The position numbers and the translations under genes are program-made. From Siphonodentalium dalli (Eukaryota > Mollusca > Scaphopoda > Gadilida > Siphonodentaliidae), in assembly GCA_032622095.1 (NCBI GenBank), contig CP136064.1, forward strand, positions 190,203,794-190,267,793: a DNA stretch of 64,000 nucleotides. Direction: 5' to 3'. Below are positions 1 to 64,000 of the stretch, piece by piece (positions within the stretch are counted from its first letter, which is position 1; every line of letters starts with the position of its first letter). The notes under the pieces are model-generated. The model ran no database searches. It saw only the letters and a program-made list of their open reading frames with translations, and was not told the DNA's origin.

Positions 1-318
1 ACAGACATGATGCACCATTCGTTCGCAATATGGACACCCAATAATTTAGTTGGTTGTTTGATTACGACATGTTCAAGATCGAAAATTGGGATCGTCAAGG
101 TCGGTCTCGGAATATTGTTAAATGGACACAACTCGTTTAAACCTCAAACAGTACGTATACCTAATATGGAAGTCGGAACAATGCAGGTCGATAAATACAC
201 GAAACACCGTTATACTCTAAAAATAGTCTTATCGAAATCACATTAATTTGACAGCTGTTTTCAATTATTTTTTCTCACAGATTGAGACAAACGCTCTTTA
301 TGCGTACCGTATAAGGAA

Positions 319-326
319 TATATAAA
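319..326 (+). promoter_or_regulatory. TATA-like motif TATATAAA (representative)
   Basis: TATATAAA lies 156 bp upstream of gene 1 in each unit. That is too far to be the usual upstream TATA of a tRNA gene (around -30), and no start site or product can be assigned to it. Confidence 0.3.
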
Positions 327-380
327 CAATGAACGCTCGATCTTTATTGTCTCGTGCTGATTAATTTTCCGAAAACAATA

Positions 381-415
381 TGACTTGAATAAGTCACGAC
401 ATGATATGTATACAT
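381..415. repeat. Two short inverted repeats upstream of gene 1 (representative)
   Basis: TGACTT-gaat-AAGTCA (381-396) could form a 6 bp stem with a 4 nt loop. ATGTATACAT (406-415) is a perfect 10 bp palindrome. Both lie 68-102 bp upstream of gene 1 and recur in each unit. Function unknown. Confidence 0.5.
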
Positions 416-489
416 TTCATGTATTTCTCGACACATTTTGACCCCGAACCGGGCCTGACGAGGAGGGTGTGTTCTTTGGCCTGGGGATG

Positions 490-501
490 TAGCTCAGTGG
501 T
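490..501 (+). promoter_or_regulatory. pol III A box (representative, unit 1 gene 1)
   Basis: TAGCTCAGTGGT matches the A-box consensus TRGCNNAGYNGG except for its last base. It lies in the T8 to D-loop region and recurs at gene nt 8-19 of nearly every copy. It is altered at the first loop G in eight gene 1 copies and partly deleted in unit 35 gene 3. Confidence 0.9.
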
Positions 502-532
502 AGAGCGTTCGCTTTGCATGTGAAAGGCCCCG

Positions 533-543
533 GGTTCGATCCC
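533..543 (+). promoter_or_regulatory. pol III B box (representative, unit 1 gene 1)
   Basis: GGTTCGATCCC fits the B-box consensus GGTTCRANNCC, the TFIIIC binding site inside the T arm. Gene 3 copies carry GGTTCAATCCC, which also fits (R = A). It is damaged in units 6 and 8 gene 1, removed in unit 19 gene 2 and altered in unit 27 gene 3. Confidence 0.92.
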
Positions 544-554
544 CGGCATCTCCA

Positions 555-794
555 GCACAGTGCTTTCTTTTTATTTGTATGTATGAAGTTTTAATTGCAC
601 ATGCCGCTGTTATGACTGACTGTCGTGATTTCATATACTGGAAAGTCACCATTTGTGAATCGAAACGTTCCGTCCTATATGCATAGCTATTAAATCACAA
701 CAAAGCAAATTTACCACTTCATCTGACTTCTCATCGAATAATAAATAGCTGTCTAATGTAGTCTCCAAACTTTGACGGACAAATTCTATCAGTT
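555..794. other. Spacer between genes 1 and 2 (unit 1)
   Basis: A 240 bp AT-rich spacer holding only the gene 1 terminator. I see no conserved gene. Position 672 is G in most units and A in units 21, 22, 23, 25 and 30. The antisense frame crossing this spacer and gene 2 is judged spurious. Confidence 0.8.
568..572 (+). terminator. pol III terminator of gene 1 (T5)
   Basis: A run of five T lies 13 nt after A73, preceded by a small AGCA/TGCT inverted repeat (554-564) and TTTC. It recurs behind gene 1 in every unit; unit 38 has a G to A change in the inverted repeat (56828). The 3' trailer would be about 14-18 nt. Confidence 0.85.
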
Positions 795-866
795 GGGGAT
801 GTAGCTCAGTGGTAGAGCGTTCGCTTTGCATGTGAAAGGCCCCGGGTTCGATCCCCGGCATCTCCA
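795..866 (+). tRNA. tRNA-Ala-TGC: tRNA-Ala(TGC), unit 1 gene 2
   Basis: Same 72 nt as gene 1, with anticodon TGC at 827-829. It is the most conserved gene of the unit: 41 of 42 copies show no difference by eye and the remaining one (unit 19) has a 13 bp deletion. Its first terminator is only a T4 run 8 nt downstream, with T4 and T5 runs further on as backup. Confidence 0.98.
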
Positions 867-874
867 AGAAATAC

Positions 875-878
875 TTTT
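875..878 (+). terminator. pol III terminator of gene 2 (T4)
   Basis: A minimal TTTT flanked by C and G, 8 nt after gene 2. Backup runs occur at 908-911 (T4), 957-961 (T5) and 1091-1098 (T8), so read-through transcripts of varied length are possible. Confidence 0.75.
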
Positions 879-1001
879 GCACGAAAGTTAAAATTAGATT
901 ATGACGGTTTTGGTGATATTAATGGATGTAAATAATAGAAACAGCTTTCCCCATCGTTTTTCCGCGTGAAATCACGAAAACGAAAAAATTACTTTTCTGT
1001 A

Positions 1002-1028
1002 TGCTCCGATGATATGCTCCGATGCTCC
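1002..1028 (+). repeat. ATGCTCCG microrepeat (representative, unit 1)
   Basis: Three copies of the octamer ATGCTCCG, the first separated from the second by ATGAT and the second and third in direct tandem. One octamer is missing in units 18, 20 and 21, which is what replication slippage would produce. Confidence 0.85.
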
Positions 1029-1160
1029 GTGGTATTGTCCTTATATCGCAGTGTAATTTCTATCATTTTATATTGAGATTAACATACTTCTTTTTTTTCG
1101 TGGGAAATCAAAGGATTTATTATTTGTCGACAATAATATGGCCTTGCAATTTTACGGGCC

Positions 1161-1232
1161 GGGGATGTAGCTCAGTGGTAGAGCGTTCGCTTCGCATGTG
1201 AAAGGCCCCGGGTTCAATCCCCGGCATCTCCA
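1161..1232 (+). tRNA. tRNA-Ala-CGC: tRNA-Ala(CGC), unit 1 gene 3
   Basis: Same cloverleaf as genes 1 and 2, but with anticodon CGC at 1193-1195, which reads GCG, and A instead of G at position 57 of the T loop. G3:U70 and A73 are kept. The A box is unchanged and the B box GGTTCAATCCC still fits consensus. A T4 run follows 11 nt downstream. The near identity to genes 1 and 2 suggests it arose by duplication and a single anticodon change; direction is inferred. Confidence 0.98.
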
Positions 1233-1243
1233 AGGAAGGCGAA

Positions 1244-1247
1244 TTTT
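1244..1247 (+). terminator. pol III terminator of gene 3 (T4)
   Basis: TTTT 11 nt after gene 3, recurring in all units. Backup runs are T4 at 1284-1287 and T5 at 1295-1299; the T5 is broken in unit 34 by a T to A change at 51487. Confidence 0.75.
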
Positions 1248-1515
1248 GTTACAATATCTTGCACTATATTTCATCAATGGCGGGTTTTGGTAAATTTTTA
1301 CCCCATTCAATCTCATACAAAATTTATAGCACTCGATCTATTTTATCAGAGGCTGCTTTTTGGTAATGTTTTGCACTATTCAAATCTCGCACAAAATCCC
1401 ATGTGTACATTGTCCTGTATTTTTTATAATTTGTTTTATATATCAGTTCGTTTCATCCCATATTTTAGTTGCGGGAGGTAGCGTCTGTTTCACAGCATCA
1501 CCCATAGAGACAAGT

Positions 1516-1523
1516 TGACGTCA
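1516..1523. promoter_or_regulatory. CRE-like TGACGTCA palindrome (representative)
   Basis: A perfect TGACGTCA, the consensus binding site of CREB/ATF-type bZIP proteins, spans each unit junction and appears intact in every copy. It sits 481 bp upstream of gene 1 and 283 bp downstream of gene 3. A functional role is inference; an 8-mer can occur by chance and then be copied with the array. Confidence 0.5.
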
Positions 1524-7320: not shown

Positions 7321-8091
7321 AGGAAGGCGAATTTTGTTACAATATCTTGCACTATATTTCATCAATGGCGGGTTTTGGTAAATTTTTACCCCATTCAATC
7401 TCATACAAAATTTATAGCACTCGATCTATTTTATCAGAGGCTGCTTTTTGGTAATGTTTTGCACTATTCAAATCTCGCACAAAATCCCATGTGTACATTG
7501 TCCTGTATTTTTTATAATTTGTTTTATATATCAGTTCGTTTCATCCCATATTTTAGTTGCGGGAGGTAGCGTCTGTTTCACAGCATCACCCATAGAGACA
7601 AGTTGACGTCACAGACATGATGCACATTCGTTCGCAATATGGACACCCAATAATTTAGTTGGTTGTTTGATTACGACATGTTCAAGATCGAAAATTGGGA
7701 TCGTCAAGGTCGGTCTCGGAATATTGTTAAATGGACACAACTCGTTTAAACCTCAAACAGTACGTATACCTAATATGGAAGTCGGAACAATGCAGGTCGA
7801 TAAATACACGAAACACCGTTATACTCTAAAAATAGTCTTATCGAAATCACATTAATTTGACAGCTGTTTTCAATTATTTTTTCTCACAGATTGAGACAAA
7901 CGCTCTTTATGCGTACCGTATAAGGAATATATAAACAATGAACGCTCGATCTTTATTGTCTCGTGCTGATTAATTTTCCGAAAACAATATGACTTGAATA
8001 AGTCACGACATGATATGTATACATTTCATGTATTTCTCGACACATTTTGACCCCGAACGGGGCCTGACGAGGAGGGTATGTTCTTTGGCCT

Positions 8092-8163
8092 GGGGATGTA
8101 GCTCAGTTGTAGAGCGTTCGCTTTGCATGTGAAAGGCCCCGGGATCGATCCCCGGCATCTCCA
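8092..8163 (+). tRNA. tRNA-Ala-TGC: tRNA-Ala(TGC), unit 6 gene 1, G18T + T54A
   Basis: G18T at 8108 and T54A at 8144. T54 forms the conserved reverse-Hoogsteen pair with A58 and is part of the B box, so both halves of the elbow and both promoter boxes are touched. Probably a weak or dead gene. Confidence 0.85.
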
Positions 8164-8403
8164 GCACAGTGCTTTCTTTTTATTTGTATGTATGAAGTTT
8201 TAATTGCACAAGCCGCTGTTATGACTGACTGTCGTGATTTCATATACTGGAAAGTCACCATTTGTGAATCGAAACGTTCCGTCCTATATGCATAGCTATT
8301 AAATCACAACAAAGCAAATTTACCACTTCATCTGACTTCTCATCGAATAATAAATAGCTGTCTAATGTAGTCTCCAAACTTTGACGGACAAATTCTATCA
8401 GTT

Positions 8404-8475
8404 GGGGATGTAGCTCAGTGGTAGAGCGTTCGCTTTGCATGTGAAAGGCCCCGGGTTCGATCCCCGGCATCTCCA
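8404..8475 (+). tRNA. tRNA-Ala-TGC: tRNA-Ala(TGC), unit 6 gene 2
   Basis: Consensus copy. Confidence 0.97.
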
Positions 8476-8769
8476 AGAAATACTTTTGCACGAAAGTTAA
8501 AATTAGATTATGACGGTTTTGGTGATATTAATGGATGTAAATAATAGAAACAGCTTTCCCCATCGTTTTTCCGCGTGAAATCACGAAAACGAAAAAATTA
8601 CTTTTCTGTATGCTCCGATGATATGCTCCGATGCTCCGTGGTATTGTCCTTATATTGCAGTGTAATTTCTATCATTTTATATTGAGATTAACATACTTCT
8701 TTTTTTTCGTGGGAAATCAAAGGATTTATTATTTGTCGACAATAATATGGCCTTGCAATTTTACGGGCC

Positions 8770-8841
8770 GGGGATGTAGCTCAGTGGTAGAGCGTTCGCT
8801 TCGCATGTGAAAGGCCCCGGGTTCAATCCCCGGCATCTCCA
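8770..8841 (+). tRNA. tRNA-Ala-CGC: tRNA-Ala(CGC), unit 6 gene 3
   Basis: Consensus copy. Confidence 0.97.
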
Positions 8842-9613
8842 AGGAAGGCGAATTTTGTTACAATATCTTGCACTATATTTCATCAATGGCGGGTTTTGGT
8901 AAATTTTTACCCCATTCAATCTCATACAAAATTTATAGCACTCGATCTATTTTATCAGAGGCTGCTTTTTGGTAATGTTTTGCACTATTCAAATCTCGCA
9001 CAAAATCCCATGTGTACATTGTCCTGTATTTTTTATAATTTGTTTTATATATCAGTTCGTTTCATCCCATATTTTAGTTGCGGGAGGTAGCGTCTGTTTC
9101 ACAGCATCACCCATAGAGACAAGTTGACGTCACAGACATGATGCACCATTCGTTCGCAATATGGACACCCAATAATTTAGTTGGTTGTTTGATTACGACA
9201 TGTTCAAGATCGAAAATTGGGATCGTCAAGGTCGGTCTCGGAATATTGTTAAATGGACACAACTCGTTTAAACCTCAAACAGTACGTATACCTAATATGG
9301 AAGTCGGAACAATGCAGGTCGATAAATACACGAAACACCGTTATACTCTAAAAATAGTCTTATCGAAATCACATTAATTTGACAGCTGTTTTCAATTATT
9401 TTTTCTCACAGATTGAGACAAACGCTCTTTATGCGTACCGTATAAGGAATATATAAACAATGAACGCTCGATCTTTATTGTCTCGTGCTGATTAATTTTC
9501 CGAAAACAATATGACTTGAATAAGTCACGACATGATATGTATACATTTCATGTATTTCTCGACACATTTTGACCCCGAACGGGGCCTGACGAGGAGGGTA
9601 TGTTCTTTGGCCT

Positions 9614-10363: not shown

Positions 10364-11135
10364 AGGAAGGCGAATTTTGTTACAATATCTTGCACTATAT
10401 TTCATCAATGGCGGGTTTTGGTAAATTTTTACCCCATTCAATCTCATACAAAATTTATAGCACTCGATCTATTTTATCAGAGGCTGCTTTTTGGTAATGT
10501 TTTGCACTATTCAAATCTCGCACAAAATCCCATGTGTACATTGTCCTGTATTTTTTATAATTTGTTTTATATATCAGTTCGTTTCATCCCATATTTTAGT
10601 TGCGGGAGGTAGCGTCTGTTTCACAGCATCACCCATAGAGACAAGTTGACGTCACAGACATGATGCACCATTCGTTCGCAATATGGACACCCAATAATTT
10701 AGTTGGTTGTTTGATTACGACATGTTCAAGATCGAAAATTGGGATCGTCAAGGTCGGTCTCGGAATATTGTTAAATGGACACAACTCGTTTAAACCTCAA
10801 ACAGTACGTATACCTAATATGGAAGTCGGAACAATGCAGGTCGATAAATACACGAAACACCGTTATACTCTAAAAATAGTCTTATCGAAATCACATTAAT
10901 TTGACAGCTGTTTTCAATTATTTTTTCTCACAGATTGAGACAAACGCTCTTTATGCGTACCGTATAAGGAATATATAAACAATGAACGCTCGATCTTTAT
11001 TGTCTCGTGCTGATTAATTTTCCGAAAACAATATGACTTGAATAAGTCACGACATGATATGTATACATTTCATGTATTTCTCGACACATTTTGACCCCGA
11101 ACGGGGCCTGACGAGGAGGGTATGTTCTTTGGCCT

Positions 11136-11207
11136 GGGGATGTAGCTCAGTTGTAGAGCGTTCGCTTTGCATGTGAAAGGCCCCGGGATCGATCCCCGGC
11201 ATCTCCA
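11136..11207 (+). tRNA. tRNA-Ala-TGC: tRNA-Ala(TGC), unit 8 gene 1, G18T + T54A
   Basis: G18T at 11152 and T54A at 11188, the same double change as unit 6. Confidence 0.85.
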
Positions 11208-11447
11208 GCACAGTGCTTTCTTTTTATTTGTATGTATGAAGTTTTAATTGCACATGCCGCTGTTATGACTGACTGTCGTGATTTCATATACTGGAAAGTC
11301 ACCATTTGTGAATCGAAACGTTCCGTCCTATATGCATAGCTATTAAATCACAACAAAGCAAATTTACCACTTCATCTGACTTCTCATCGAATAATAAATA
11401 GCTGTCTAATGTAGTCTCCAAACTTTGACGGACAAATTCTATCAGTT

Positions 11448-11519
11448 GGGGATGTAGCTCAGTGGTAGAGCGTTCGCTTTGCATGTGAAAGGCCCCGGGT
11501 TCGATCCCCGGCATCTCCA
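11448..11519 (+). tRNA. tRNA-Ala-TGC: tRNA-Ala(TGC), unit 8 gene 2
   Basis: Consensus copy. Confidence 0.97.
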
Positions 11520-11813
11520 AGAAATACTTTTGCACGAAAGTTAAAATTCGATTATGACGGTTTTGGTGATATTAATGGATGCAAATAATAGAAACAGCTT
11601 TCCCCATCGTTTTTCCGCGTGAAATCACGAAAACGAAAAAATTACTTTTCTGTATGCTCCGATGATATGCTCCGATGCTCCGTGGTATTGTCCTTATATC
11701 GCAGTGTAATTTCTATCATTTTATATTGAGATTAACATACTTCTTTTTTTTCGTGGGAAATCAAAGGATTTATTATTTGTCGACAATAATATGGCCTTGC
11801 AATTTTACGGGCC

Positions 11814-11885
11814 GGGGATGTAGCTCAGTGGTAGAGCGTTCGCTTCGCATGTGAAAGGCCCCGGGTTCAATCCCCGGCATCTCCA
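11814..11885 (+). tRNA. tRNA-Ala-CGC: tRNA-Ala(CGC), unit 8 gene 3
   Basis: Consensus copy. Confidence 0.97.
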
Positions 11886-12657
11886 AGGAAGGCGAATTTT
11901 GTTACAATATCTTGCACTATATTTCATCAATGGCGGGTTTTGGTAAATTTTTACCCCATTCAATCTCATACAAAATTTATAGCACTCGATCTATTTTATC
12001 AGAGGCTGCTTTTTGGTAATGTTTTGCACTATTCAAATCTCGCACAAAATCCCATGTGTACATTGTCCTGTATTTTTTATAATTTGTTTTATATATCAGT
12101 TCGTTTCATCCCATATTTTAGTTGCGGGAGGTAGCGTCTGTTTCACAGCATCACCCATAGAGACAAGTTGACGTCACAGACATGATGCACCATTCGTTCG
12201 CAATATGGACACCCAATAATTTAGTTGGTTGTTTGATTACGACATGTTCAAGATCGAAAATTGGGATCGTCAAGGTCGGTCTCGGAATATTGTTAAATGG
12301 ACACAACTCGTTTAAACCTCAAACAGTACGTATACCTAATATGGAAGTCGGAACAATGCAGGTCGATAAATACACGAAACACCGTTATACTCTAAAAATA
12401 GTCTTATCGAAATCACATTAATTTGACAGCTGTTTTCAATTATTTTTTCTCACAGATTGAGACAAACGCTCTTTATGCGTACCGTATAAGGAATATATAA
12501 ACAATGAACGCTCGATCTTTATTGTCTCGTGCTGATTAATTTTCCGAAAACAATATGACTTGAATAAGTCACGACATGATATGTATACATTTCATGTATT
12601 TCTCGACACATTTTGACCCCGAACCGGGCCTGACGAGGAGGGTGTGTTCTTTGGCCT

Positions 12658-12729
12658 GGGGATGTAGCTCAGTGGTAGAGCGTTCGCTTTGCATGTGAAA
12701 GGCCCCGGGTTCGATCCCCGGCATCTCCA
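12658..12729 (+). tRNA. tRNA-Ala-TGC: tRNA-Ala(TGC), unit 9 gene 1
   Basis: Consensus copy. Confidence 0.97.
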
Positions 12730-12969
12730 GCACAGTGCTTTCTTTTTATTTGTATGTATGAAGTTTTAATTGCACAAGCCGCTGTTATGACTGACTGTCG
12801 TGATTTCATATACTGGAAAGTCACCATTTGTGAATCGAAACGTTCCGTCCTATATGCATAGCTATTAAATCACAACAAAGCAAATTTACCACTTCATCTG
12901 ACTTCTCATCGAATAATAAATAGCTGTCTAATGTAGTCTCCAAACTTTGACGGACAAATTCTATCAGTT

Positions 12970-13041
12970 GGGGATGTAGCTCAGTGGTAGAGCGTTCGCT
13001 TTGCATGTGAAAGGCCCCGGGTTCGATCCCCGGCATCTCCA
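12970..13041 (+). tRNA. tRNA-Ala-TGC: tRNA-Ala(TGC), unit 9 gene 2
   Basis: Consensus copy. Confidence 0.97.
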
Positions 13042-13335
13042 AGAAATACTTTTGCACGAAAGTTAAAATTAGATTATGACGGTTTTGGTGATATTAATGG
13101 ATGTAAATAATAGAAACAGCTTTCCCCATCGTTTTTCCGCGTGAAATCACGAAAACGAAAAAATTACTTTTCTGTATGCTCCGATGATATGCTCCGATGC
13201 TCCGTGGTATTGTCCTTATATTGCAGTGTAATTTCTATCATTTTATATTGAGATTAACATACTTCTTTTTTTTCGTGGGAAATCAAAGGATTTATTATTT
13301 GTCGACAATAATATGGCCTTGCAATTTTACGGGCC

Positions 13336-13407
13336 GGGGATGTAGCTCAGTGGTAGAGCGTTCGCTTCGCATGTGAAAGGCCCCGGGTTCAATCCCCGGC
13401 ATCTCCA
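13336..13407 (+). tRNA. tRNA-Ala-CGC: tRNA-Ala(CGC), unit 9 gene 3
   Basis: Consensus copy. Confidence 0.97.
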
Positions 13408-14179
13408 AGGAAGGCGAATTTTGTTACAATATCTTGCACTATATTTCATCAATGGCGGGTTTTGGTAAATTTTTACCCCATTCAATCTCATACAAAATTT
13501 ATAGCACTCGATCTATTTTATCAGAGGCTGCTTTTTGGTAATGTTTTGCACTATTCAAATCTCGCACAAAATCCCATGTGTACATTGTCCTGTATTTTTT
13601 ATAATTTGTTTTATATATCAGTTCGTTTCATCCCATATTTTAGTTGCGGGAGGTAGCGTCTGTTTCACAGCATCACCCATAGAGACAAGTTGACGTCACA
13701 GACATGATGCACCATTCGTTCGCAATATGGACACCCAATAATTTAGTTGGTTGTTTGATTACGACATGTTCAAGATCGAAAATTGGGATCGTCAAGGTCG
13801 GTCTCGGAATATTGTTAAATGGACACAACTCGTTTAAACCTCAAACAGTACGTATACCTAATATGGAAGTCGGAACAATGCAGGTCGATAAATACACGAA
13901 ACACCGTTATACTCTAAAAATAGTCTTATCGAAATCACATTAATTTGACAGCTGTTTTCAATTATTTTTTCTCACAGATTGAGACAAACGCTCTTTATGC
14001 GTACCGTATAAGGAATATATAAACAATGAACGCTCGATCTTTATTGTCTCGTGCTGATTAATTTTCCGAAAACAATATGACTTGAATAAGTCACGACATG
14101 ATATGTATACATTTCATGTATTTCTCGACACATTTTGACCCCGAACGGGGCCTGACGAGGAGGGTATGTTCTTTGGCCT

Positions 14180-16451: not shown

Positions 16452-17223
16452 AGGAAGGCGAATTTTGTTACAATATCTTGCACTATATTTCATCAATGGC
16501 GGGTTTTGGTAAATTTTTACCCCATTCAATCTCATACAAAATTTATAGCACTCGATCTATTTTATCAGAGGCTGCTTTTTGGTAATGTTTTGCACTATTC
16601 AAATCTCGCACAAAATCCCATGTGTACATTGTCCTGTATTTTTTATAATTTGTTTTATATATCAGTTCGTTTCATCCCATATTTTAGTTGCGGGAGGTAG
16701 CGTCTGTTTCACAGCATCACCCATAGAGACAAGTTGACGTCACAGACATGATGCACCATTCGTTCGCAATATGGACACCCAATAATTTAGTTGGTTGTTT
16801 GATTACGACATGTTCAAGATCGAAAATTGGGATCGTCAAGGTCGGTCTCGGAATATTGTTAAATGGACACAACTCGTTTAAACCTCAAACAGTACGTATA
16901 CCTAATATGGAAGTCGGAACAATGCAGGTCGATAAATACACGAAACACCGTTATACTCTAAAAATAGTCTTATCGAAATCACATTAATTTGACAGCTGTT
17001 TTCAATTATTTTTTCTCACAGATTGAGACAAACGCTCTTTATGCGTACCGTATAAGGAATATATAAACAATGAACGCTCGATCTTTATTGTCTCGTGCTG
17101 ATTAATTTTCCGAAAACAATATGACTTGAATAAGTCACGACATGATATGTATACATTTCATGTATTTCTCGACACATTTTGACCCCGAACCGGGCCTGAC
17201 GAGGAGGGTATGTTCTTTGGTCT

Positions 17224-17295
17224 GGGGATGTAGCTCAGTGGTAGAGCGTTCGCTTTGCATGTGAAAGGCCTTGGGTTCGATCCCCGGCATCTCCA
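17224..17295 (+). tRNA. tRNA-Ala-TGC: tRNA-Ala(TGC), unit 12 gene 1, CC49-50TT
   Basis: Adjacent C49T and C50T at 17271-17272 turn the two outer T-stem pairs into G-U wobbles. The stem can still form, more weakly. A tandem CC to TT is the typical mark of UV-type dipyrimidine damage or a single multinucleotide event; which one is not decidable here. Confidence 0.9.
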
Positions 17296-17535
17296 GCACA
17301 GTGCTTTCTTTTTATTTGTATGTATGAAGTTTTAATTGCACATGCCGCTGTTATGACTGACTGTCGTGATTTCATATACTGGAAAGTCACCATTTGTGAA
17401 TCGAAACGTTCCGTCCTATATGCATAGCTATTAAATCACAACAAAGCAAATTTACCACTTCATCTGACTTCTCATCGAATAATAAATAGCTGTCTAATGT
17501 AGTCTCCAAACTTTGACGGACAAATTCTATCAGTT

Positions 17536-17607
17536 GGGGATGTAGCTCAGTGGTAGAGCGTTCGCTTTGCATGTGAAAGGCCCCGGGTTCGATCCCCGGC
17601 ATCTCCA
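17536..17607 (+). tRNA. tRNA-Ala-TGC: tRNA-Ala(TGC), unit 12 gene 2
   Basis: Consensus copy. Confidence 0.97.
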
Positions 17608-17901
17608 AGAAATACTTTTGCACGAAAGTTAAAATTCGATTATGACGGTTTTGGTGATATTAATGGATGTAAATAATAGAAACAGCTTTCCCCATCGTTT
17701 TTCCGCGTGAAATCACGAAAACGAAAAAATTACTTTTCTGTATGCTCCGATGATATGCTCCGATGCTCCGTGGTATTGTCCTTATATTGCAGTGTAATTT
17801 CTATCATTTTATATTGAGATTAACATACTTCTTTTTTTTCGTGGGAAATCAAAGGATTTATTATTTGTCGACAATAATATGGCCTTGCAATTTTACGGGC
17901 C

Positions 17902-17973
17902 GGGAATGTAGCTCAGTGGTAGAGCGTTCGCTTCGCATGTGAAAGGCCCCGGGTTCAATCCCCGGCATCTCCA
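17902..17973 (+). tRNA. tRNA-Ala-CGC: tRNA-Ala(CGC), unit 12 gene 3, G4A variant
   Basis: G4A at 17905 gives an A4-C69 mismatch. Confidence 0.9.
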
Positions 17974-18745
17974 AGGAAGGCGAATTTTGTTACAATATCT
18001 TGCACTATATTTCATCAATGGCGGGTTTTGGTAAATTTTTACCCCATTCAATCTCATACAAAATTTATAGCACTCGATCTATTTTATCAGAGGCTGCTTT
18101 TTGGTAATGTTTTGCACTATTCAAATCTCGCACAAAATCCCATGTGTACATTGTCCTGTATTTTTTATAATTTGTTTTATATATCAGTTCGTTTCATCCC
18201 ATATTTTAGTTGCGGGAGGTAGCGTCTGTTTCACAGCATCACCCATAGAGACAAGTTGACGTCACAGACATGATGCACCATTCGTTCGCAATATGGACAC
18301 CCAATAATTTAGTTGGTTGTTTGATTACGACATGTTCAAGATCGAAAATTGGGATCGTCAAGGTCGGTCTCGGAATATTGTTAAATGGACACAACTCGTT
18401 TAAACCTCAAACAGTACGTATACCTAATATGGAAGTCGGAACAATGCAGGTCGATAAATACACGAAACACCGTTATACTCTAAAAATAGTCTTATCGAAA
18501 TCACATTAATTTGACAGCTGTTTTCAATTATTTTTTCTCACAGATTGAGACAAACGCTCTTTATGCGTACCGTATAAGGAATATATAAACAATGAACGCT
18601 CGATCTTTATTGTCTCGTGCTGATTAATTTTCCGAAAACAATATGACTTGAATAAGTCACGACATGATATGTATACATTTCATGTATTTCTCGACACATT
18701 TTGACCCCGAACGGGGCCTGACGAGGAGGGTATGTTCTTTGGCCT

Positions 18746-18817
18746 GGGGATGTAGCTCAGTTGTAGAGCGTTCGCTTTGCATGTGAAAGGCCCCGGGTTC
18801 GATCCCCGGCATCTCCA
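18746..18817 (+). tRNA. tRNA-Ala-TGC: tRNA-Ala(TGC), unit 13 gene 1, G18T variant
   Basis: G18T at 18762; otherwise consensus. Confidence 0.9.
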
Positions 18818-19057
18818 GCACAGTGCTTTCTTTTTATTTGTATGTATGAAGTTTTAATTGCACATGCCGCTGTTATGACTGACTGTCGTGATTTCATATA
18901 CTGGAAAGTCACCATTTGTGAATCGAAACGTTCCGTCCTATATGCATAGCTATTAAATCACAACAAAGCAAATTTACCACTTCATCTGACTTCTCATCGA
19001 ATAATAAATAGCTGTCTAATGTAGTCTCCAAACTTTGACGGACAAATTCTATCAGTT

Positions 19058-19129
19058 GGGGATGTAGCTCAGTGGTAGAGCGTTCGCTTTGCATGTGAAA
19101 GGCCCCGGGTTCGATCCCCGGCATCTCCA
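19058..19129 (+). tRNA. tRNA-Ala-TGC: tRNA-Ala(TGC), unit 13 gene 2
   Basis: Consensus copy. Confidence 0.97.
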
Positions 19130-19423
19130 AGAAATACTTTTGCACGAAAGTTAAAATTCGATTATGACGGTTTTGGTGATATTAATGGATGCAAATAATA
19201 GAAACAGCTTTCCCCATCGTTTTTCCGCGTGAAATCACGAAAACGAAAAAATTACTTTTCTGTATGCTCCGATGATATGCTCCGATGCTCCGTGGTATTG
19301 TCCTTATATTGCAGTGTAATTTCTATCATTTTATATTGAGATTAACATACTTCTTTTTTTTCGTGGGAAATCAAAGGATTTATTATTTGTCGACAATAAT
19401 ATGGCCTTGCAATTTTACGGGCC

Positions 19424-19495
19424 GGGGATGTAGCTCAGTGGTAGAGCGTTCGCTTCGCATGTGAAAGGCCCCGGGTTCAATCCCCGGCATCTCCA
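19424..19495 (+). tRNA. tRNA-Ala-CGC: tRNA-Ala(CGC), unit 13 gene 3
   Basis: Consensus copy. Confidence 0.97.
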
Positions 19496-20267
19496 AGGAA
19501 GGCGAATTTTGTTACAATATCTTGCACTATATTTCATCAATGGCGGGTTTTGGTAAATTTTTACCCCATTCAATCTCATACAAAATTTATAGCACTCGAT
19601 CTATTTTATCAGAGGCTGCTTTTTGGTAATGTTTTGCACTATTCAAATCTCGCACAAAATCCCATGTGTACATTGTCCTGTATTTTTTATAATTTGTTTT
19701 ATATATCAGTTCGTTTCATCCCATATTTTAGTTGCGGGAGGTAGCGTCTGTTTCACAGCATCACCCATAGAGACAAGTTGACGTCACAGACATGATGCAC
19801 CATTCGTTCGCAATATGGACACCCAATAATTTAGTTGGTTGTTTGATTACGACATGTTCAAGATCGAAAATTGGGATCGTCAAGGTCGGTCTCGGAATAT
19901 TGTTAAATGGACACAACTCGTTTAAACCTCAAACAGTACGTATACCTAATATGGAAGTCGGAACAATGCAGGTCGATAAATACACGAAACACCGTTATAC
20001 TCTAAAAATAGTCTTATCGAAATCACATTAATTTGACAGCTGTTTTCAATTATTTTTTCTCACAGATTGAGACAAACGCTCTTTATGCGTACCGTATAAG
20101 GAATATATAAACAATGAACGCTCGATCTTTATTGTCTCGTGCTGATTAATTTTCCGAAAACAATATGACTTGAATAAGTCACGACATGATATGTATACAT
20201 TTCATGTATTTCTCGACACATTTTGACCCCGAACCGGGCCTGACGAGGAGGGTATGTTCTTTGGTCT

Positions 20268-20339
20268 GGGGATGTAGCTCAGTGGTAGAGCGTTCGCTTT
20301 GCATGTGAAAGGCCCCGGGTTCGATCCCCGGCATCTCCA
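20268..20339 (+). tRNA. tRNA-Ala-TGC: tRNA-Ala(TGC), unit 14 gene 1
   Basis: Consensus copy. Confidence 0.97.
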
Positions 20340-20579
20340 GCACAGTGCTTTCTTTTTATTTGTATGTATGAAGTTTTAATTGCACATGCCGCTGTTATGA
20401 CTGACTGTCGTGATTTCATATACTGGAAAGTCACCATTTGTGAATCGAAACGTTCCGTCCTATATGCATAGCTATTAAATCACAACAAAGCAAATTTACC
20501 ACTTCATCTGACTTCTCATCGAATAATAAATAGCTGTCTAATGTAGTCTCCAAACTTTGACGGACAAATTCTATCAGTT

Positions 20580-20651
20580 GGGGATGTAGCTCAGTGGTAG
20601 AGCGTTCGCTTTGCATGTGAAAGGCCCCGGGTTCGATCCCCGGCATCTCCA
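20580..20651 (+). tRNA. tRNA-Ala-TGC: tRNA-Ala(TGC), unit 14 gene 2
   Basis: Consensus copy. Confidence 0.97.
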
Positions 20652-20945
20652 AGAAATACTTTTGCACGAAAGTTAAAATTCGATTATGACGGTTTTGGTG
20701 ATATTAATGGATGTAAATAATAGAAACAGCTTTCCCCATCGTTTTTCCGCGTGAAATCACGAAAACGAAAAAATTACTTTTCTGTATGCTCCGATGATAT
20801 GCTCCGATGCTCCGTGGTATTGTCCTTATATTGCAGTGTAATTTCTATCATTTTATATTGAGATTAACATACTTCTTTTTTTTCGTGGGAAATCAAAGGA
20901 TTTATTATTTGTCGACAATAATATGGCCTTGCAATTTTACGGGCC

Positions 20946-21017
20946 GGGAATGTAGCTCAGTGGTAGAGCGTTCGCTTCGCATGTGAAAGGCCCCGGGTTC
21001 AATCCCCGGCATCTCCA
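20946..21017 (+). tRNA. tRNA-Ala-CGC: tRNA-Ala(CGC), unit 14 gene 3, G4A variant
   Basis: G4A at 20949 gives an A4-C69 mismatch. Confidence 0.9.
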
Positions 21018-21789
21018 AGGAAGGCGAATTTTGTTACAATATCTTGCACTATATTTCATCAATGGCGGGTTTTGGTAAATTTTTACCCCATTCAATCTCA
21101 TACAAAATTTATAGCACTCGATCTATTTTATCAGAGGCTGCTTTTTGGTAATGTTTTGCACTATTCAAATCTCGCACAAAATCCCATGTGTACATTGTCC
21201 TGTATTTTTTATAATTTGTTTTATATATCAGTTCGTTTCATCCCATATTTTAGTTGCGGGAGGTAGCGTCTGTTTCACAGCATCACCCATAGAGACAAGT
21301 TGACGTCACAGACATGATGCACCATTCGTTCGCAATATGGACACCCAATAATTTAGTTGGTTGTTTGATTACGACATGTTCAAGATCGAAAATTGGGATC
21401 GTCAAGGTCGGTCTCGGAATATTGTTAAATGGACACAACTCGTTTAAACCTCAAACAGTACGTATACCTAATATGGAAGTCGGAACAATGCAGGTCGATA
21501 AATACACGAAACACCGTTATACTCTAAAAATAGTCTTATCGAAATCACATTAATTTGACAGCTGTTTTCAATTATTTTTTCTCACAGATTGAGACAAACG
21601 CTCTTTATGCGTACCGTATAAGGAATATATAAACAATGAACGCTCGATCTTTATTGTCTCGTGCTGATTAATTTTCCGAAAACAATATGACTTGAATAAG
21701 TCACGACATGATATGTATACATTTCATGTATTTCTCGACACATTTTGACCCCGAACGGGGCCTGACGAGGAGGGTATGTTCTTTGGCCT

Positions 21790-21861
21790 GGGGATGTAGC
21801 TCAGTTGTAGAGCGTTCGCTTTGCATGTGAAAGGCCCCGGGTTCGATCCCCGGCATCTCCA
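21790..21861 (+). tRNA. tRNA-Ala-TGC: tRNA-Ala(TGC), unit 15 gene 1, G18T variant
   Basis: G18T at 21806; the rightmost copy carrying this allele in the window. Confidence 0.9.
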
Positions 21862-22101
21862 GCACAGTGCTTTCTTTTTATTTGTATGTATGAAGTTTTA
21901 ATTGCACATGCCGCTGTTATGACTGACTGTCGTGATTTCATATACTGGAAAGTCACCATTTGTGAATCGAAACGTTCCGTCCTATATGCATAGCTATTAA
22001 ATCACAACAAAGCAAATTTACCACTTCATCTGACTTCTCATCGAATAATAAATAGCTGTCTAATGTAGTCTCCAAACTTTGACGGACAAATTCTATCAGT
22101 T

Positions 22102-22173
22102 GGGGATGTAGCTCAGTGGTAGAGCGTTCGCTTTGCATGTGAAAGGCCCCGGGTTCGATCCCCGGCATCTCCA
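22102..22173 (+). tRNA. tRNA-Ala-TGC: tRNA-Ala(TGC), unit 15 gene 2
   Basis: Consensus copy. Confidence 0.97.
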
Positions 22174-22467
22174 AGAAATACTTTTGCACGAAAGTTAAAA
22201 TTCGATTATGACGGTTTTGGTGATATTAATGGATGCAAATAATAGAAACAGCTTTCCCCATCGTTTTTCCGCGTGAAATCACGAAAACGAAAAAATTACT
22301 TTTCTGTATGCTCCGATGATATGCTCCGATGCTCCGTGGTATTGTCCTTATATTGCAGTGTAATTTCTATCATTTTATATTGAGATTAACATACTTCTTT
22401 TTTTTCGTGGGAAATCAAAGGATTTATTATTTGTCGACAATAATATGGCCTTGCAATTTTACGGGCC

Positions 22468-22539
22468 GGGGATGTAGCTCAGTGGTAGAGCGTTCGCTTC
22501 GCATGTGAAAGGCCCCGGGTTCAATCCCCGGCATCTCCA
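22468..22539 (+). tRNA. tRNA-Ala-CGC: tRNA-Ala(CGC), unit 15 gene 3
   Basis: Consensus copy. Confidence 0.97.
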
Positions 22540-23311
22540 AGGAAGGCGAATTTTGTTACAATATCTTGCACTATATTTCATCAATGGCGGGTTTTGGTAA
22601 ATTTTTACCCCATTCAATCTCATACAAAATTTATAGCACTCGATCTATTTTATCAGAGGCTGCTTTTTGGTAATGTTTTGCACTATTCAAATCTCGCACA
22701 AAATCCCATGTGTACATTGTCCTGTATTTTTTATAATTTGTTTTATATATCAGTTCGTTTCATCCCATATTTTAGTTGCGGGAGGTAGCGTCTGTTTCAC
22801 AGCATCACCCATAGAGACAAGTTGACGTCACAGACATGATGCACCATTCGTTCGCAATATGGACACCCAATAATTTAGTTGGTTGTTTGATTACGACATG
22901 TTCAAGATCGAAAATTGGGATCGTCAAGGTCGGTCTCGGAATATTGTTAAATGGACACAACTCGTTTAAACCTCAAACAGTACGTATACCTAATATGGAA
23001 GTCGGAACAATGCAGGTCGATAAATACACGAAACACCGTTATACTCTAAAAATAGTCTTATCGAAATCACATTAATTTGACAGCTGTTTTCAATTATTTT
23101 TTCTCACAGATTGAGACAAACGCTCTTTATGCGTACCGTATAAGGAATATATAAACAATGAACGCTCGATCTTTATTGTCTCGTGCTGATTAATTTTCCG
23201 AAAACAATATGACTTGAATAAGTCACGACATGATATGTATACATTTCATGTATTTCTCGACACATTTTGACCCCGAACCGGGCCTGACGAGGAGGGTATG
23301 TTCTTTGGTCT

Positions 23312-23383
23312 GGGGATGTAGCTCAGTGGTAGAGCGTTCGCTTTGCATGTGAAAGGCCCCGGGTTCGATCCCCGGCATCTCCA
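23312..23383 (+). tRNA. tRNA-Ala-TGC: tRNA-Ala(TGC), unit 16 gene 1
   Basis: Consensus copy. Confidence 0.97.
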
Positions 23384-23623
23384 GCACAGTGCTTTCTTTT
23401 TATTTGTATGTATGAAGTTTTAATTGCACATGCCGCTGTTATGACTGACTGTCGTGATTTCATATACTGGAAAGTCACCATTTGTGAATCGAAACGTTCC
23501 GTCCTATATGCATAGCTATTAAATCACAACAAAGCAAATTTACCACTTCATCTGACTTCTCATCGAATAATAAATAGCTGTCTAATGTAGTCTCCAAACT
23601 TTGACGGACAAATTCTATCAGTT

Positions 23624-23695
23624 GGGGATGTAGCTCAGTGGTAGAGCGTTCGCTTTGCATGTGAAAGGCCCCGGGTTCGATCCCCGGCATCTCCA
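23624..23695 (+). tRNA. tRNA-Ala-TGC: tRNA-Ala(TGC), unit 16 gene 2
   Basis: Consensus copy. Confidence 0.97.
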
Positions 23696-23989
23696 AGAAA
23701 TACTTTTGCACGAAAGTTAAAATTCGATTATGACGGTTTTGGTGATATTAATGGATGTAAATAATAGAAACAGCTTTCCCCATCGTTTTTCCGCGTGAAA
23801 TCACGAAAACGAAAAAATTACTTTTCTGTATGCTCCGATGATATGCTCCGATGCTCCGTGGTATTGTCCTTATATTGCAGTGTAATTTCTATCATTTTAT
23901 ATTGAGATTAACATACTTCTTTTTTTTCGTGGGAAATCAAAGGATTTATTATTTGTCGACAATAATATGGCCTTGCAATTTTACGGGCC

Positions 23990-24061
23990 GGGAATGTAGC
24001 TCAGTGGTAGAGCGTTCGCTTCGCATGTGAAAGGCCCCGGGTTCAATCCCCGGCATCTCCA
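23990..24061 (+). tRNA. tRNA-Ala-CGC: tRNA-Ala(CGC), unit 16 gene 3, G4A variant
   Basis: G4A at 23993 gives an A4-C69 mismatch; last copy with this allele in the window. Confidence 0.9.
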
Positions 24062-24833
24062 AGGAAGGCGAATTTTGTTACAATATCTTGCACTATATTT
24101 CATCAATGGCGGGTTTTGGTAAATTTTTACCCCATTCAATCTCATACAAAATTTATAGCACTCGATCTATTTTATCAGAGGCTGCTTTTTGGTAATGTTT
24201 TGCACTATTCAAATCTCGCACAAAATCCCATGTGTACATTGTCCTGTATTTTTTATAATTTGTTTTATATATCAGTTCGTTTCATCCCATATTTTAGTTG
24301 CGGGAGGTAGCGTCTGTTTCACAGCATCACCCATAGAGACAAGTTGACGTCACAGACATGATGCACCATTCGTTCGCAATATGGACACCCAATAATTTAG
24401 TTGGTTGTTTGATTACGACATGTTCAAGATCGAAAATTGGGATCGTCAAGGTCGGTCTCGGAATATTGTTAAATGGACACAACTCGTTTAAACCTCAAAC
24501 AGTACGTATACCTAATATGGAAGTCGGAACAATGCAGGTCGATAAATACACGAAACACCGTTATACTCTAAAAATAGTCTTATCGAAATCACATTAATTT
24601 GACAGCTGTTTTCAATTATTTTTTCTCACAGATTGAGACAAACGCTCTTTATGCGTACCGTATAAGGAATATATAAACAATGAACGCTCGATCTTTATTG
24701 TCTCGTGCTGATTAATTTTCCGAAAACAATATGACTTGAATAAGTCACGACATGATATGTATACATTTCATGTATTTCTCGACACATTTTGACCCCGAAC
24801 CGGGCCTCACGAGGAGGGTGTGTTCTTTGGCCT

Positions 24834-25583: not shown

Positions 25584-26355
25584 AGGAAGGCGAATTTTGT
25601 TACAATATCTTGCACTATATTTCATCAATGGCGGGTTTTGGTAAATTTTTACCCCATTCAATCTCATACAAAATTTATAGCACTCGATCTATTTTATCAG
25701 AGGCTGCTTTTTGGTAATGTTTTGCACTATTCAAATCTCGCACAAAATCCCATGTGTACATTGTCCTGTATTTTTTATAATTTGTTTTATATATCAGTTC
25801 GTTTCATCCCATATTTTAGTTGCGGGAGGTAGCGTCTGTTTCACAGCATCACCCATAGAGACAAGTTGACGTCACAGACATGATGCACCATTCGTTCGCA
25901 ATATGGACACCCAATAATTTAGTTGGTTGTTTGATTACGACATGTTCAAGATCGAAAATTGGGATCGTCAAGGTCGGTCTCGGAATATTGTTAAATGGAC
26001 ACAACTCGTTTAAACCTCAAACAGTACGTATACCTAATATGGAAGTCGGAACAATGCAGGTCGATAAATACACGAAACACCGTTATACTCTAAAAATAGT
26101 CTTATCGAAATCACATTAATTTGACAGCTGTTTTCAATTATTTTTTCTCACAGATTGAGACAAACGCTCTTTATGCGTACCATATAAGGAATATATAAAC
26201 AATGAACGCTCGATCTTTATTGTCTCGTGCTGATTAATTTTCCGAAAACAATATGACTTGAATAAGTCACGACATGATATGTATACATTTCATGTATTTC
26301 TCGACACATTTTGACCCCGAACCGGGCCTGACGAGGAGGGTGTGTTCTTTGGCCT

Positions 26356-26427
26356 GGGGATGTAGCTCAGTGGTAGAGCGTTCGCTTTGCATGTGAAAGG
26401 CCCCGGGTTCGATCCCCGGCATCTCCA
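26356..26427 (+). tRNA. tRNA-Ala-TGC: tRNA-Ala(TGC), unit 18 gene 1
   Basis: Consensus copy. Confidence 0.97.
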
Positions 26428-26667: not shown

Positions 26668-26739
26668 GGGGATGTAGCTCAGTGGTAGAGCGTTCGCTTT
26701 GCATGTGAAAGGCCCCGGGTTCGATCCCCGGCATCTCCA
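26668..26739 (+). tRNA. tRNA-Ala-TGC: tRNA-Ala(TGC), unit 18 gene 2
   Basis: Consensus copy. Confidence 0.97.
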
Positions 26740-52870: not shown

Positions 52871-52934
52871 AGCTCAGTGGTAGAGCGTTCGCTTCGCATG
52901 TGAAAGGCCCCGGGTTCAATCCCCGGCATCTCCA
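52871..52934 (+). pseudogene. tRNA-Ala(CGC) pseudogene, unit 35 gene 3, 5' acceptor strand deleted
   Basis: The 8 bp GGGGATGT (bases 1-8) are missing, so the 5' acceptor strand, the G of G3:U70 and the first base of the A box are gone; 64 nt remain. No microhomology is evident at the junction. The B box and the rest of the cloverleaf are intact, so some transcription is conceivable, but a chargeable tRNA is not. Confidence 0.93.
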
Positions 52935-61318: not shown

Positions 61319-61390
61319 GGGGATGTAGCTCAGTGGTAGAGCGTTCGCTTTGCATGTGAAAGGCCCCGGGTTCGATCCCCGGCATCTCCA
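61319..61390 (+). tRNA. tRNA-Ala-TGC: tRNA-Ala(TGC), unit 41 gene 1
   Basis: Consensus copy. Confidence 0.97.
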
Positions 61391-61630
61391 GCACAGTGCT
61401 TTCTTTTTATTTGTATGTATGAAGTTTTAATTGCACATGCCGCTGTTATGACTGACTGTCGTGATTTCATATACTGGAAAGTCACCATTTGTGAATCGAA
61501 ACGTTCCGTCCTATATGCATAGCTATTAAATCACAACAAAGCAAATTTACCACTTCATCTGACTTCTCATCGAATAATAAATAGCTGTCTAATGTAGTCT
61601 CCAAACTTTGACGGACAAATTCTATCAGTT

Positions 61631-61702
61631 GGGGATGTAGCTCAGTGGTAGAGCGTTCGCTTTGCATGTGAAAGGCCCCGGGTTCGATCCCCGGCATCTC
61701 CA
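61631..61702 (+). tRNA. tRNA-Ala-TGC: tRNA-Ala(TGC), unit 41 gene 2
   Basis: Consensus copy. Confidence 0.97.
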
Positions 61703-61996
61703 AGAAATACTTTTGCACGAAAGTTAAAATTCGATTATGACGGTTTTGGTGATATTAATGGATGTAAATAATAGAAACAGCTTTCCCCATCGTTTTTCCG
61801 CGTGAAATCACGAAAACGAAAAAATTACTTTTCTGTATGCTCCGATGATATGCTCCGATGCTCCGTGGTATTGTCCTTATATTGCAGTGTAATTTCTATC
61901 ATTTTATATTGAGATTAACATACTTCTTTTTTTTCGTGGGAAATCAAAGGATTTATTATTTGTCGACAATAATATGGCCTTGCAATTTTACGGGCC

Positions 61997-62068
61997 GGGG
62001 ATGTAGCTCAGTGGTAGAGCGTTCGCTTCGCATTTGAAAGGCCCCGGGTTCAATCCCCGGCATCTCCA
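61997..62068 (+). tRNA. tRNA-Ala-CGC: tRNA-Ala(CGC), unit 41 gene 3, G39T variant
   Basis: G39T at 62034 replaces the C31-G39 pair closing the anticodon loop with a C-U mismatch. Promoter boxes and identity pair are intact. Confidence 0.9.
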
Positions 62069-62840
62069 AGGAAGGCGAATTTTGTTACAATATCTTGCAC
62101 TATATTTCATCAATGGCGGGTTTTGGTAAATTTTTACCCCATTCAATCTCATACAAAATTTATAGCACTCGATCTATTTTATCAGAGGCTGCTTTTTGGT
62201 AATGTTTTGCACTATTCAAATCTCGCACAAAATCCCATATGTACATTGTCCTGTATTTTTTATAATTTGTTTTATATATCAGTTCGTTTCATCCCATATT
62301 TTAGTTGCGGGAGGTAGCGTCTGTTTCACAGCATCACCCATAGAGACAAGTTGACGTCACAGACATGATGCACCATTCGTTCGCAATATGGACACCCAAT
62401 AATTTAGTTGGTTGTTTGATTACGACATGTTCAAGATCGAAAATTGGGATCGTCAAGGTCGGTCTCGGAATATTGTTAAATGGACACAACTCGTTTAAAC
62501 CTCAAACAGTACGTATACCTAATATGGAAGTCGGAACAATGCAGGTCGATAAATACACGAAACACCGTTATACTCTAAAAATAGTCTTATCGAAATCACA
62601 TTAATTTGACAGCTGTTTTCAATTATTTTTTCTCACAGATTGAGACAAACGCTCTTTATGCGTACCGTATAAGGAATATATAAACAATGAACGCTCGATC
62701 TTTATTGTCTCGTGCTGATTAATTTTCCGAAAACAATATGACTTGAATAAGTCACGACATGATATGTATACATTTCATGTATTTCTCGACACATTTTGAC
62801 CCCGAACCGGGCCTGACGAGGAGGGTGTGTTCTTTGGCCT

Positions 62841-62912
62841 GGGGATGTAGCTCAGTGGTAGAGCGTTCGCTTTGCATGTGAAAGGCCCCGGGTTCGATCC
62901 CCGGCATCTCCA
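62841..62912 (+). tRNA. tRNA-Ala-TGC: tRNA-Ala(TGC), unit 42 gene 1
   Basis: Consensus copy. Confidence 0.97.
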
Positions 62913-63152
62913 GCACAGTGCTTTCTTTTTATTTGTATGTATGAAGTTTTAATTGCACATGCCGCTGTTATGACTGACTGTCGTGATTTCATATACTGGA
63001 AAGTCACCATTTGTGAATCGAAACGTTCCGTCCTATATGCATAGCTATTAAATCACAACAAAGCAAATTTACCACTTCATCTGACTTCTCATCGAATAAT
63101 AAATAGCTGTCTAATGTAGTCTCCAAACTTTGACGGACAAATTCTATCAGTT

Positions 63153-63224
63153 GGGGATGTAGCTCAGTGGTAGAGCGTTCGCTTTGCATGTGAAAGGCCC
63201 CGGGTTCGATCCCCGGCATCTCCA
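63153..63224 (+). tRNA. tRNA-Ala-TGC: tRNA-Ala(TGC), unit 42 gene 2
   Basis: Consensus copy. Confidence 0.97.
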
Positions 63225-63519
63225 AGAAATACTTTTGCACGAAAGTTAAAATTCGATTATGACGGTTTTGGTGATATTAATGGATGTAAATAATAGAAAC
63301 AGCTTTCCCCATCGTTTTTCCGCGTGAAATCACGAAAACGAAAAAATTACTTTTCTGTATGCTCCGATGATATGCTCCGATGCTCCGTGGTATTGTCCTT
63401 ATATTGCAGTGTAATTTCTATCATTTTATATTGAGATTAACATACTTCTTTTTTTTTCGTGGGAAATCAAAGGATTTATTATTTGTCGACAATAATATGG
63501 CCTTGCAATTTTACGGGCC

Positions 63520-63591
63520 GGGGATGTAGCTCAGTGGTAGAGCGTTCGCTTCGCATGTGAAAGGCCCCGGGTTCAATCCCCGGCATCTCCA
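63520..63591 (+). tRNA. tRNA-Ala-CGC: tRNA-Ala(CGC), unit 42 gene 3
   Basis: Consensus copy. Confidence 0.97.
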
Positions 63592-63881
63592 AGGAAGGCG
63601 AATTTTGTTACAATATCTTGCACTATATTTCATCAATGGCGGGTTTTGGTAAATTTTTACCCCATTCAATCTCATACAAAATTTATAGCACTCGATCTAT
63701 TTTATCAGAGGCTGCTTTTTGGTAATGTTTTGCACTATTCAAATCTCGCACAAAATCCCATGTGTACATTGTCCTGTATTTTTTATAATTTGTTTTATAT
63801 ATCAGTTCGTTTCATCCCATATTTTAGTTGCGGGAGGTAGCGTCTGTTTCACAGCATCACCCATAGAGACAAGTTGACGTC

Positions 63882-64000
63882 ACAGACATGATGCACCATT
63901 CGTTCGCAATATGGACACCCAATAATTTAGTTGGTTGTTTGATTACGACATGTTCAAGATCGAAAATTGGGATCGTCAAGGTCGGTCTCGGAATATTGTT
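63882..64000 (+). repeat. Array unit 43 (partial, cut by window end)
   Basis: First 119 bp of a further unit; no diagnostic site is reached. Confidence 0.95.

Follow-up and report, generated by a model that had tools for sequence, protein, structure and literature searches.

A tandem array of alanine tRNA genes filling a 64 kb stretch of the Siphonodentalium dalli genome

Organization of the array

The window analysed here, a 64,000-nucleotide stretch of contig CP136064.1 from the scaphopod mollusc Siphonodentalium dalli (GenBank assembly GCA_032622095.1, positions 190,203,794 to 190,267,793, forward strand), consists of a single tandem array of tRNA-Ala genes in which nothing else was seen. 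The array (1..64000, + strand) comprises 42 complete head-to-tail units of about 1,522 bp and 119 bp of unit 43, as delineated by self-match, an anchor sequence and comparison with a consensus, and continues past both ends of the window. The start of unit 1 was set at base 1; this unit (1..1522, + strand) serves as the representative repeat and differs from the consensus at two positions. An 18-base anchor, with up to three substitutions allowed, occurs 42 times, the last occurrence falling in the partial unit, and one extra unit start, at which the anchor lacks one base, brings the total to 42 whole units and the 119 bp piece. The length is exactly 1,522 bp in 33 of the 42 units and ranges from 1,509 to 1,523 bp in the remainder; unit 6, which starts at 7611, lacks one C. 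When the window is compared with itself at a lag of 1,522, 85% of positions agree, a level at which chance is not an issue, and pairs of units differ by 0.29% on average and by 0.79% at most.

The piece of unit 43 at the end of the window has no mismatches to the consensus, and both ends of the window therefore lie inside the array. The original prediction, made from the letters of the stretch, had proposed a 1,522 bp unit with three tRNA-Ala genes that is repeated more than 42 times without interruption and runs out of the window on both sides, and this description is borne out. The window combines the long uninterrupted run of near-identical units expected of a satellite with the head-to-tail tRNA-bearing units, free of any other gene, expected of a tandem tRNA array.

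The tRNA-Ala genes

The consensus unit carries three tRNA genes in the same direction, tRNA-Ala(TGC), tRNA-Ala(TGC) and tRNA-Ala(CGC), with spacers of 240, 294 and 772 bp. In unit 1, gene 1 (483..554, + strand) is 72 nt long and scores 70.4 bits with Rfam, gene 2 is located at 795..866 (+ strand) and gene 3, the CGC gene, at 1161..1232 (+ strand). Over the whole window, ARAGORN recognizes 124 genes for tRNA-Ala, every one on the + strand, and the gathering score of Rfam RF00005 is passed at 126 places, which is three per unit; the two loci missed by ARAGORN are deletion alleles, one of gene 2 (unit 19) and one of gene 3 (unit 35). In the consensus, the 72 nt of gene 1 recur unchanged in gene 2, and gene 3 departs from this sequence at two bases, the first anticodon base and one base of the T loop. 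The three spacers share only very short matches with one another (best blastn E value 0.028), which leaves a common ancestry of the spacers unsupported. With genes 1 and 2 identical, gene 3 two bases off and the spacers unalike, the genes have thus stayed alike, whereas their flanks have not.

The Rfam covariance model aligns genes 1/2 and gene 3 as cloverleafs. A-box and B-box patterns are located at unit positions 490, 802 and 1168 and at 533, 845 and 1211, respectively, so that the boxes of gene 1 begin at 490 and 533. The consensus acceptor stem contains a G3:U70 pair (checked in gene 1; genes 2 and 3 are the same there), which is an important identity pair for tRNA-Ala, and a G30:U40 pair is also present in the genes of the array. 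A run of at least four T bases follows genes 1, 2 and 3 at distances of 13, 8 and 11 bases, and each gene has its run in all 42 units. In unit 1 these runs, the likely RNA polymerase III (Pol III) terminators of the three genes, are five T bases at 568..572, four at 875..878 and four at 1244..1247 (all + strand). As far as such features can indicate, the consensus genes look intact and competent for Pol III transcription.

Variation among gene copies

Copies identical to the consensus account for 107 of the 126 (31 of 42 for gene 1, 41 of 42 for gene 2 and 35 of 42 for gene 3); 17 copies have substitutions and two have deletions. The 126 tRNA-Ala loci of the original prediction thus stand as loci that pass the Rfam threshold, but not all of them are intact. 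Likewise, its pairing of satellite-like organization with intact Pol III genes is upheld for the consensus, by the G3:U70 pair, the A and B boxes and the T runs, and not for the 19 copies that depart from it. The only variant copy of gene 2 (unit 19; 28182..28240, + strand) has lost 13 bp in the region of the T arm and B box and scores 46 bits with Rfam; it looks like a slippage deletion within the B-box region. In unit 35, gene 3 (52871..52926, + strand) lacks its first eight bases and scores 41.7 bits. Neither locus is called by ARAGORN. In the T arm, CCCCGG occurs on either side of the 13 bp deletion of unit 19.

The units contain 37 distinct substitutions and three distinct single-base insertion or deletion events, with variants polarized by the consensus and not by an outgroup. 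Nine of the substitutions fall in the 216 bp of gene sequence and the other 28 in the spacers, which total 1,306 bp (Fisher p = 0.09). A search for purifying selection acting on individual copies of the genes found none in this comparison, the trend being in the opposite direction and not significant. As substitutions are no rarer in genes than in spacers, single copies look dispensable even though the consensus genes look intact, a combination that we read as redundancy. When 50 bp flanks are counted with the genes, 19 substitutions fall in 516 bp compared with 18 in the remaining 1,006 bp (p = 0.033).

Gene 1 is the most variable of the three, with six distinct substitutions in 42 copies, and gene 2 has none in 42 copies, which at such counts is compatible with chance. 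Within 50 bp of gene 1 (433–604 in unit 1) lie 13 of the 37 substitutions; the scan p value of 0.012 was computed on a cluster that had already been noticed. This cluster might reflect transcription-linked mutation, or chance. Using Sprinzl numbers assigned by script, gene 1 has a variant at position 18 (G18T) in eight of 42 units and one at position 54 (T54A) in two units, gene 3 has a variant at position 4 (G4A) in four units, and T-stem variants occur in units 12 and 27; these variants should be harmful. In unit 12, gene 1 has adjacent C-to-T changes at 17271–17272 (unit positions 530 and 531), perhaps from a single event. The consensus shows no CpG depletion (71 observed, 58.7 expected), and CpG transitions make up five of the 37 distinct substitutions.

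Signs of exchange between units

Variants are shared among the units in patterns that point to exchange. Unit 6 (7611..9131, + strand) carries in its 5′ part the variants 450G, 469A, 499T and 535A of unit 8 and in its 3′ part the variants 602A and 896A of unit 9. Units 8 and 9 (10654..13697, + strand) are neighbours whose fusion would yield unit 6, which reads as an unequal-exchange fusion of unit 8-type and unit 9-type repeats. Units 1–16 are mostly an alternation of a type with 450G, 469A, 499T and 929C with other types, and in units 12–16 (16742..24351, + strand) two types alternate as C B C B C. Exact repeats in the window reach 4,484 bp at most; the longest starts at 17273 and has an offset of 3,044, i.e. 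two units, its second copy reaching unit 17. Units 18–21 (25874..31924, + strand) include an 8 bp deletion in spacer 2 (unit positions 1014–1021) that is present in units 18, 20 and 21 and absent from unit 19.

The same periodicity is seen in the average differences between units. Units two apart differ at 3.12 sites, compared with 4.36 after shuffling, and none of 5,000 shuffles gave a value as low; differences at lag 6 are also low (3.81, p = 0.013), and adjacent units are unremarkable (4.29 differences at lag 1 versus 4.35). Among pairs of shared variants, 28 of 120 occur in all four combinations, some of which repeated mutation could explain. Units 29–42 (42579–63881) are less diverse than units 1–28, with 2.25–2.85 differences at lags 1–6 compared with 2.9–5.57. 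It is as if the window crossed sub-arrays of different age.

A model for amplification and homogenization

The locus is probably a chromosomal tandem tRNA array in which a 1,522 bp unit with three separately transcribable tRNA-Ala genes was amplified and has been kept uniform by repeated unequal exchange. From the variant pattern, the units appear to be homogenized by exchange (concerted evolution), and the likely mechanism, given the loose fit of the models described below, is unequal exchange over several units at a time with an excess of two-unit steps. A mutation in one copy would be tolerated through redundancy and later removed or spread by exchange, and selection would act only on the summed output of the array, or else the consensus may still be young. 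Each gene, when transcribed, would behave as an ordinary type-2 Pol III unit and supply tRNA-Ala for GCA and GCG codons.

The size of the exchange steps was explored by simulation, using simple models with parameters chosen by hand and 60 runs per setting. Single-unit slippage as the main exchange step was not supported in this simple model, none of the 60 runs giving the observed profile. When about 40% of the steps covered two units, the profile appeared in nine of 60 runs with steps spanning 1–12 units and in ten of 60 with steps spanning 2–12 units.

Several results weigh against the proposed model. Steps of 1–6 units gave the observed profile in two of 60 and 0 of 60 runs, steps of 1–12 units in one of 60 (0 of 60 when about 20% of the steps covered two units), steps of 2–12 units in one of 60, and a mixture in which two-unit steps made up 80% and one- and three-unit steps the rest in two of 60. 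Strict two-unit steps, or steps of two, four and six units, reproduced the profile in 60 of 60 runs each, with an alternation far stronger than that observed. The simulated diversity is about twice that of the array (8.2 versus 4.35 differences in the best mixed model), and the simulations thus back the two-unit steps only loosely. In minimum-energy folding of the unmodified sequences, gene 3 adopts the cloverleaf but gene 1/2 does not. Finally, the tolerated mutated copies fit a silent array as well as they fit a redundant active one.

Comparison with known tandem tRNA arrays

Tandem tRNA arrays are already known, including tandem tRNA repeats in Xenopus, so the organization has precedents and is not unique; the present array is a large, very uniform, single-isotype example of it. 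No report recognized as this array was found in a search of an incomplete literature collection.

The closest analogue is the SYY cluster on chromosome 1 of Arabidopsis thaliana, which has 27 units of one Ser and two Tyr genes in almost 40 kb and is described as containing no other annotated gene (PMC10701932). A later survey reports that SYY stretches are not strictly triplet repeats (PMC11700998). The cluster is silent in most tissues and is on in root-cap cells, where its deletion alters a transgenic glycoprotein rich in Ser, Tyr and Pro; within the cluster, the Y1 position has more variants than Y2 (PMC12308677). According to these sources, the two arrays have in common three tRNA genes per unit, units of about 1.5 kb, a lack of other annotated genes, and the presence of major and minor gene copies with pseudogenes, Y1 being more variable than Y2 just as gene 1 is more variable than gene 2 here. 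They differ in that SYY serves two amino acids and has 27 units, while the present array serves one amino acid and has more than 42 units; variants form a larger share in SYY, with 22 minor genes among 54 clustered Tyr genes compared with 19 of 126 here. In contrast to the present array, SYY has a known expression pattern and deletion phenotype.

In Entamoeba histolytica almost all tRNA genes are in tandem arrays, which make up more than 10% of the genome and whose function is described as remaining unclear (PMC2652664). As here, the units are tandem and bear tRNA genes (up to five there), most copies are uniform within an isolate, and concerted evolution or unequal exchange has been proposed (PMC2652664). 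On the same account, E. histolytica has 25 kinds of array compared with the one kind seen here, and in this species and E. dispar the genes are separated by short tandem repeats, whereas Tandem Repeats Finder (TRF) detects only a 13 bp near-duplication in the present window.

Among animals, Bombyx mori is similar in having clustered silk-gland tRNA-Ala genes, which are cited in a comment article (PMC12419691); the silk-linked genes appear to have the anticodon AGC and to be specific to the silk gland (PMC7566577), unlike the TGC and CGC genes found here. The same paper reports that TGC and CGC tRNA-Ala prefer G30:U40, for example in mammals, and describes these unusual pairs as not seen in fungi and nematodes (PMC7566577). 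The G30:U40 pair is the only taxonomic hint found in the sequence itself. Of tRNA genes and pseudogenes, 65% are in clusters in zebrafish and 87% in stickleback (PMC2888827), and methylated tRNA gene repeats are mentioned for Xenopus and mouse embryos (PMC12308677). Plant tandem tRNA duplications include repeated sets of two and three genes, as here, with up to 37 repeats and clusters of up to 110 genes (PMC12652284). The present array, with at least 126 genes, exceeds the largest cluster given in that source, and it carries a single amino acid, unlike the bryophyte 'Cpu' set, in which tRNA-Ala(TGC) and tRNA-Leu(CAG) are mixed (PMC12652284).

Alternative explanations

An unlikely but sizeable possibility is that the locus is a transcriptionally silent satellite, amplified by chance and held in repressed chromatin, with passenger tRNA genes whose intact appearance is due solely to recent amplification. 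The gene copies are at least as variable as the spacers, 19 of 126 depart from the consensus, and the closest analogue, the Ser/Tyr/Tyr cluster of Arabidopsis, is reported as silent in most tissues (PMC12308677), all of which a silent satellite would accommodate. It fits less well with the intact appearance of the three consensus genes and with the presence of the T runs in every one of the 42 units. Nor is a mark of long methylation seen, given that CpG is not depleted and that CpG transitions are few among the substitutions, and the clustering of substitutions round gene 1 could reflect mutation linked to transcription.

That the array is a specialized supply, switched on in one tissue for a very alanine-rich (silk-like) protein, seems doubtful. 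All 124 loci called by ARAGORN are for one amino acid, and there are precedents in the silk-gland tRNA-Ala of Bombyx (PMC12419691) and the root-cap Ser/Tyr/Tyr cluster of Arabidopsis (PMC12308677). A G30:U40 pair like that in the array is found in the tRNA-Ala that the silk glands of Bombyx favour (PMC7566577), a likeness of little weight given that the pair is common in TGC and CGC tRNA-Ala. Against such a role, the Bombyx tRNA-Ala with unusual features is described as having the anticodon AGC (PMC7566577), and the anticodons here are TGC and CGC; no AGC tRNA-Ala gene is among the ARAGORN calls in the window, so the AGC anticodon of the silk-gland genes is not matched. A slightly bolder proposal, and one to be doubted a little more, is that the animal possesses a very large dedicated bank of tRNA-Ala genes, reading GCA and GCG, that is opened in one cell type for an extremely alanine-rich secreted protein. 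If that were true, the bank would represent, in an animal, what the root-cap cluster is in Arabidopsis, with an origin separate from that of the silkworm AGC genes.

It is very unlikely that the array is an assembly artefact in which a few real units were inflated by a looped assembly graph. Units 4, 7, 10, 13 and 15 are identical, and this identity and the two-unit alternation could also come from a looped graph. However, 35 of the 42 units are distinct (34 by substitutions alone), variants shared by at least two units define 21 haplotypes (20 without a homopolymer insertion), and no exact repeat is as long as an ordinary long read, so inflation from one or a few units is unlikely. The proportion of three single-base insertion or deletion events to 37 substitutions is also unlike the errors of noisy reads. 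The original prediction had named an artefact of this kind, with only one or a few units in the genome, as its refutation; from the diversity of units and haplotypes, the array is very probably real.

tRNA genes head many short interspersed nuclear elements (SINEs), whose anatomy is a tRNA promoter head and an unrelated body that ends in an A-rich or LINE-like tail, with target-site duplications. Birth of the array from a transposable element, whether a tRNA-derived SINE or a Helitron-like capture, is the least credible of the explanations: Helitrons overlap the tRNA-Cys cluster of Arabidopsis (PMC10701932), but here no listed reading frame in bases 1–3,044 exceeds 99 residues, the three frames tested have no Pfam match above cutoff, the unit has no strong terminal inverted or direct repeats, and a T run close behind each gene is unlike the body of a SINE.

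Why some eukaryotes keep tRNA genes in satellite-like arrays is an unsettled question. The alleles specific to this array (e.g. G18T in gene 1) would be distinguishable in tRNA sequencing. Its large size, its dedication to one amino acid and these alleles thus make it well suited as a natural test of whether arrays of this type serve tRNA supply, are silent or are active in one tissue. The pattern of variants is in addition a record of how arrays of Pol III genes homogenize.

Searches for other genes and minor features of the unit

The window was described by the original prediction as containing only tRNA genes, and this holds within the tests made, namely Rfam on the window, reading frames in bases 1–3,044 and Pfam on three frames. 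No other RNA family scored above its Rfam gathering threshold in the window; the list for bases 1–4,600, which admits E values as high as 1, has a single further entry, a permuted transfer-messenger RNA (19.6 bits against a cutoff of 47). No hidden protein gene was found among the frames of bases 1–3,044, where the longest stop-to-stop frame listed has 99 residues. Pfam was searched with three of the 16 frames listed; two gave matches below the cutoff, one gave none, and none gave a match above it.

Pattern searches for relatives returned 0 matches throughout: the 72 nt tRNA pattern in viral contigs and, with both anticodons, in genome contigs; a 38-base part of the tRNA in genome contigs; a 37-base part in viral contigs; and a 20-base spacer pattern in viral contigs. 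A distant blastn search with unit 1 matched 177 phage and five plasmid records. Among the matches listed (ten phage and five plasmid), coverage of the unit does not exceed 14% and the matching pieces are at the tRNA genes. The tRNA sequence, looked for in the text of papers, turned up in three of them, in each case as no more than 25 bases from the 5′ part.

The 13 bp near-duplication that is the only feature found by TRF in the window lies in spacer 2 (1000–1024 and the same site elsewhere) and is reported in 38 of the 42 units. Of the four other units, 18, 20 and 21 have the 8 bp deletion there and unit 39 has a substitution there. A decayed direct repeat is located downstream of gene 3 (1285–1383), with 26 nt copies that are 81% alike and start 73 bp apart. 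About 60 bp upstream of gene 1, a near-perfect 24 bp palindrome is present at 399–422.

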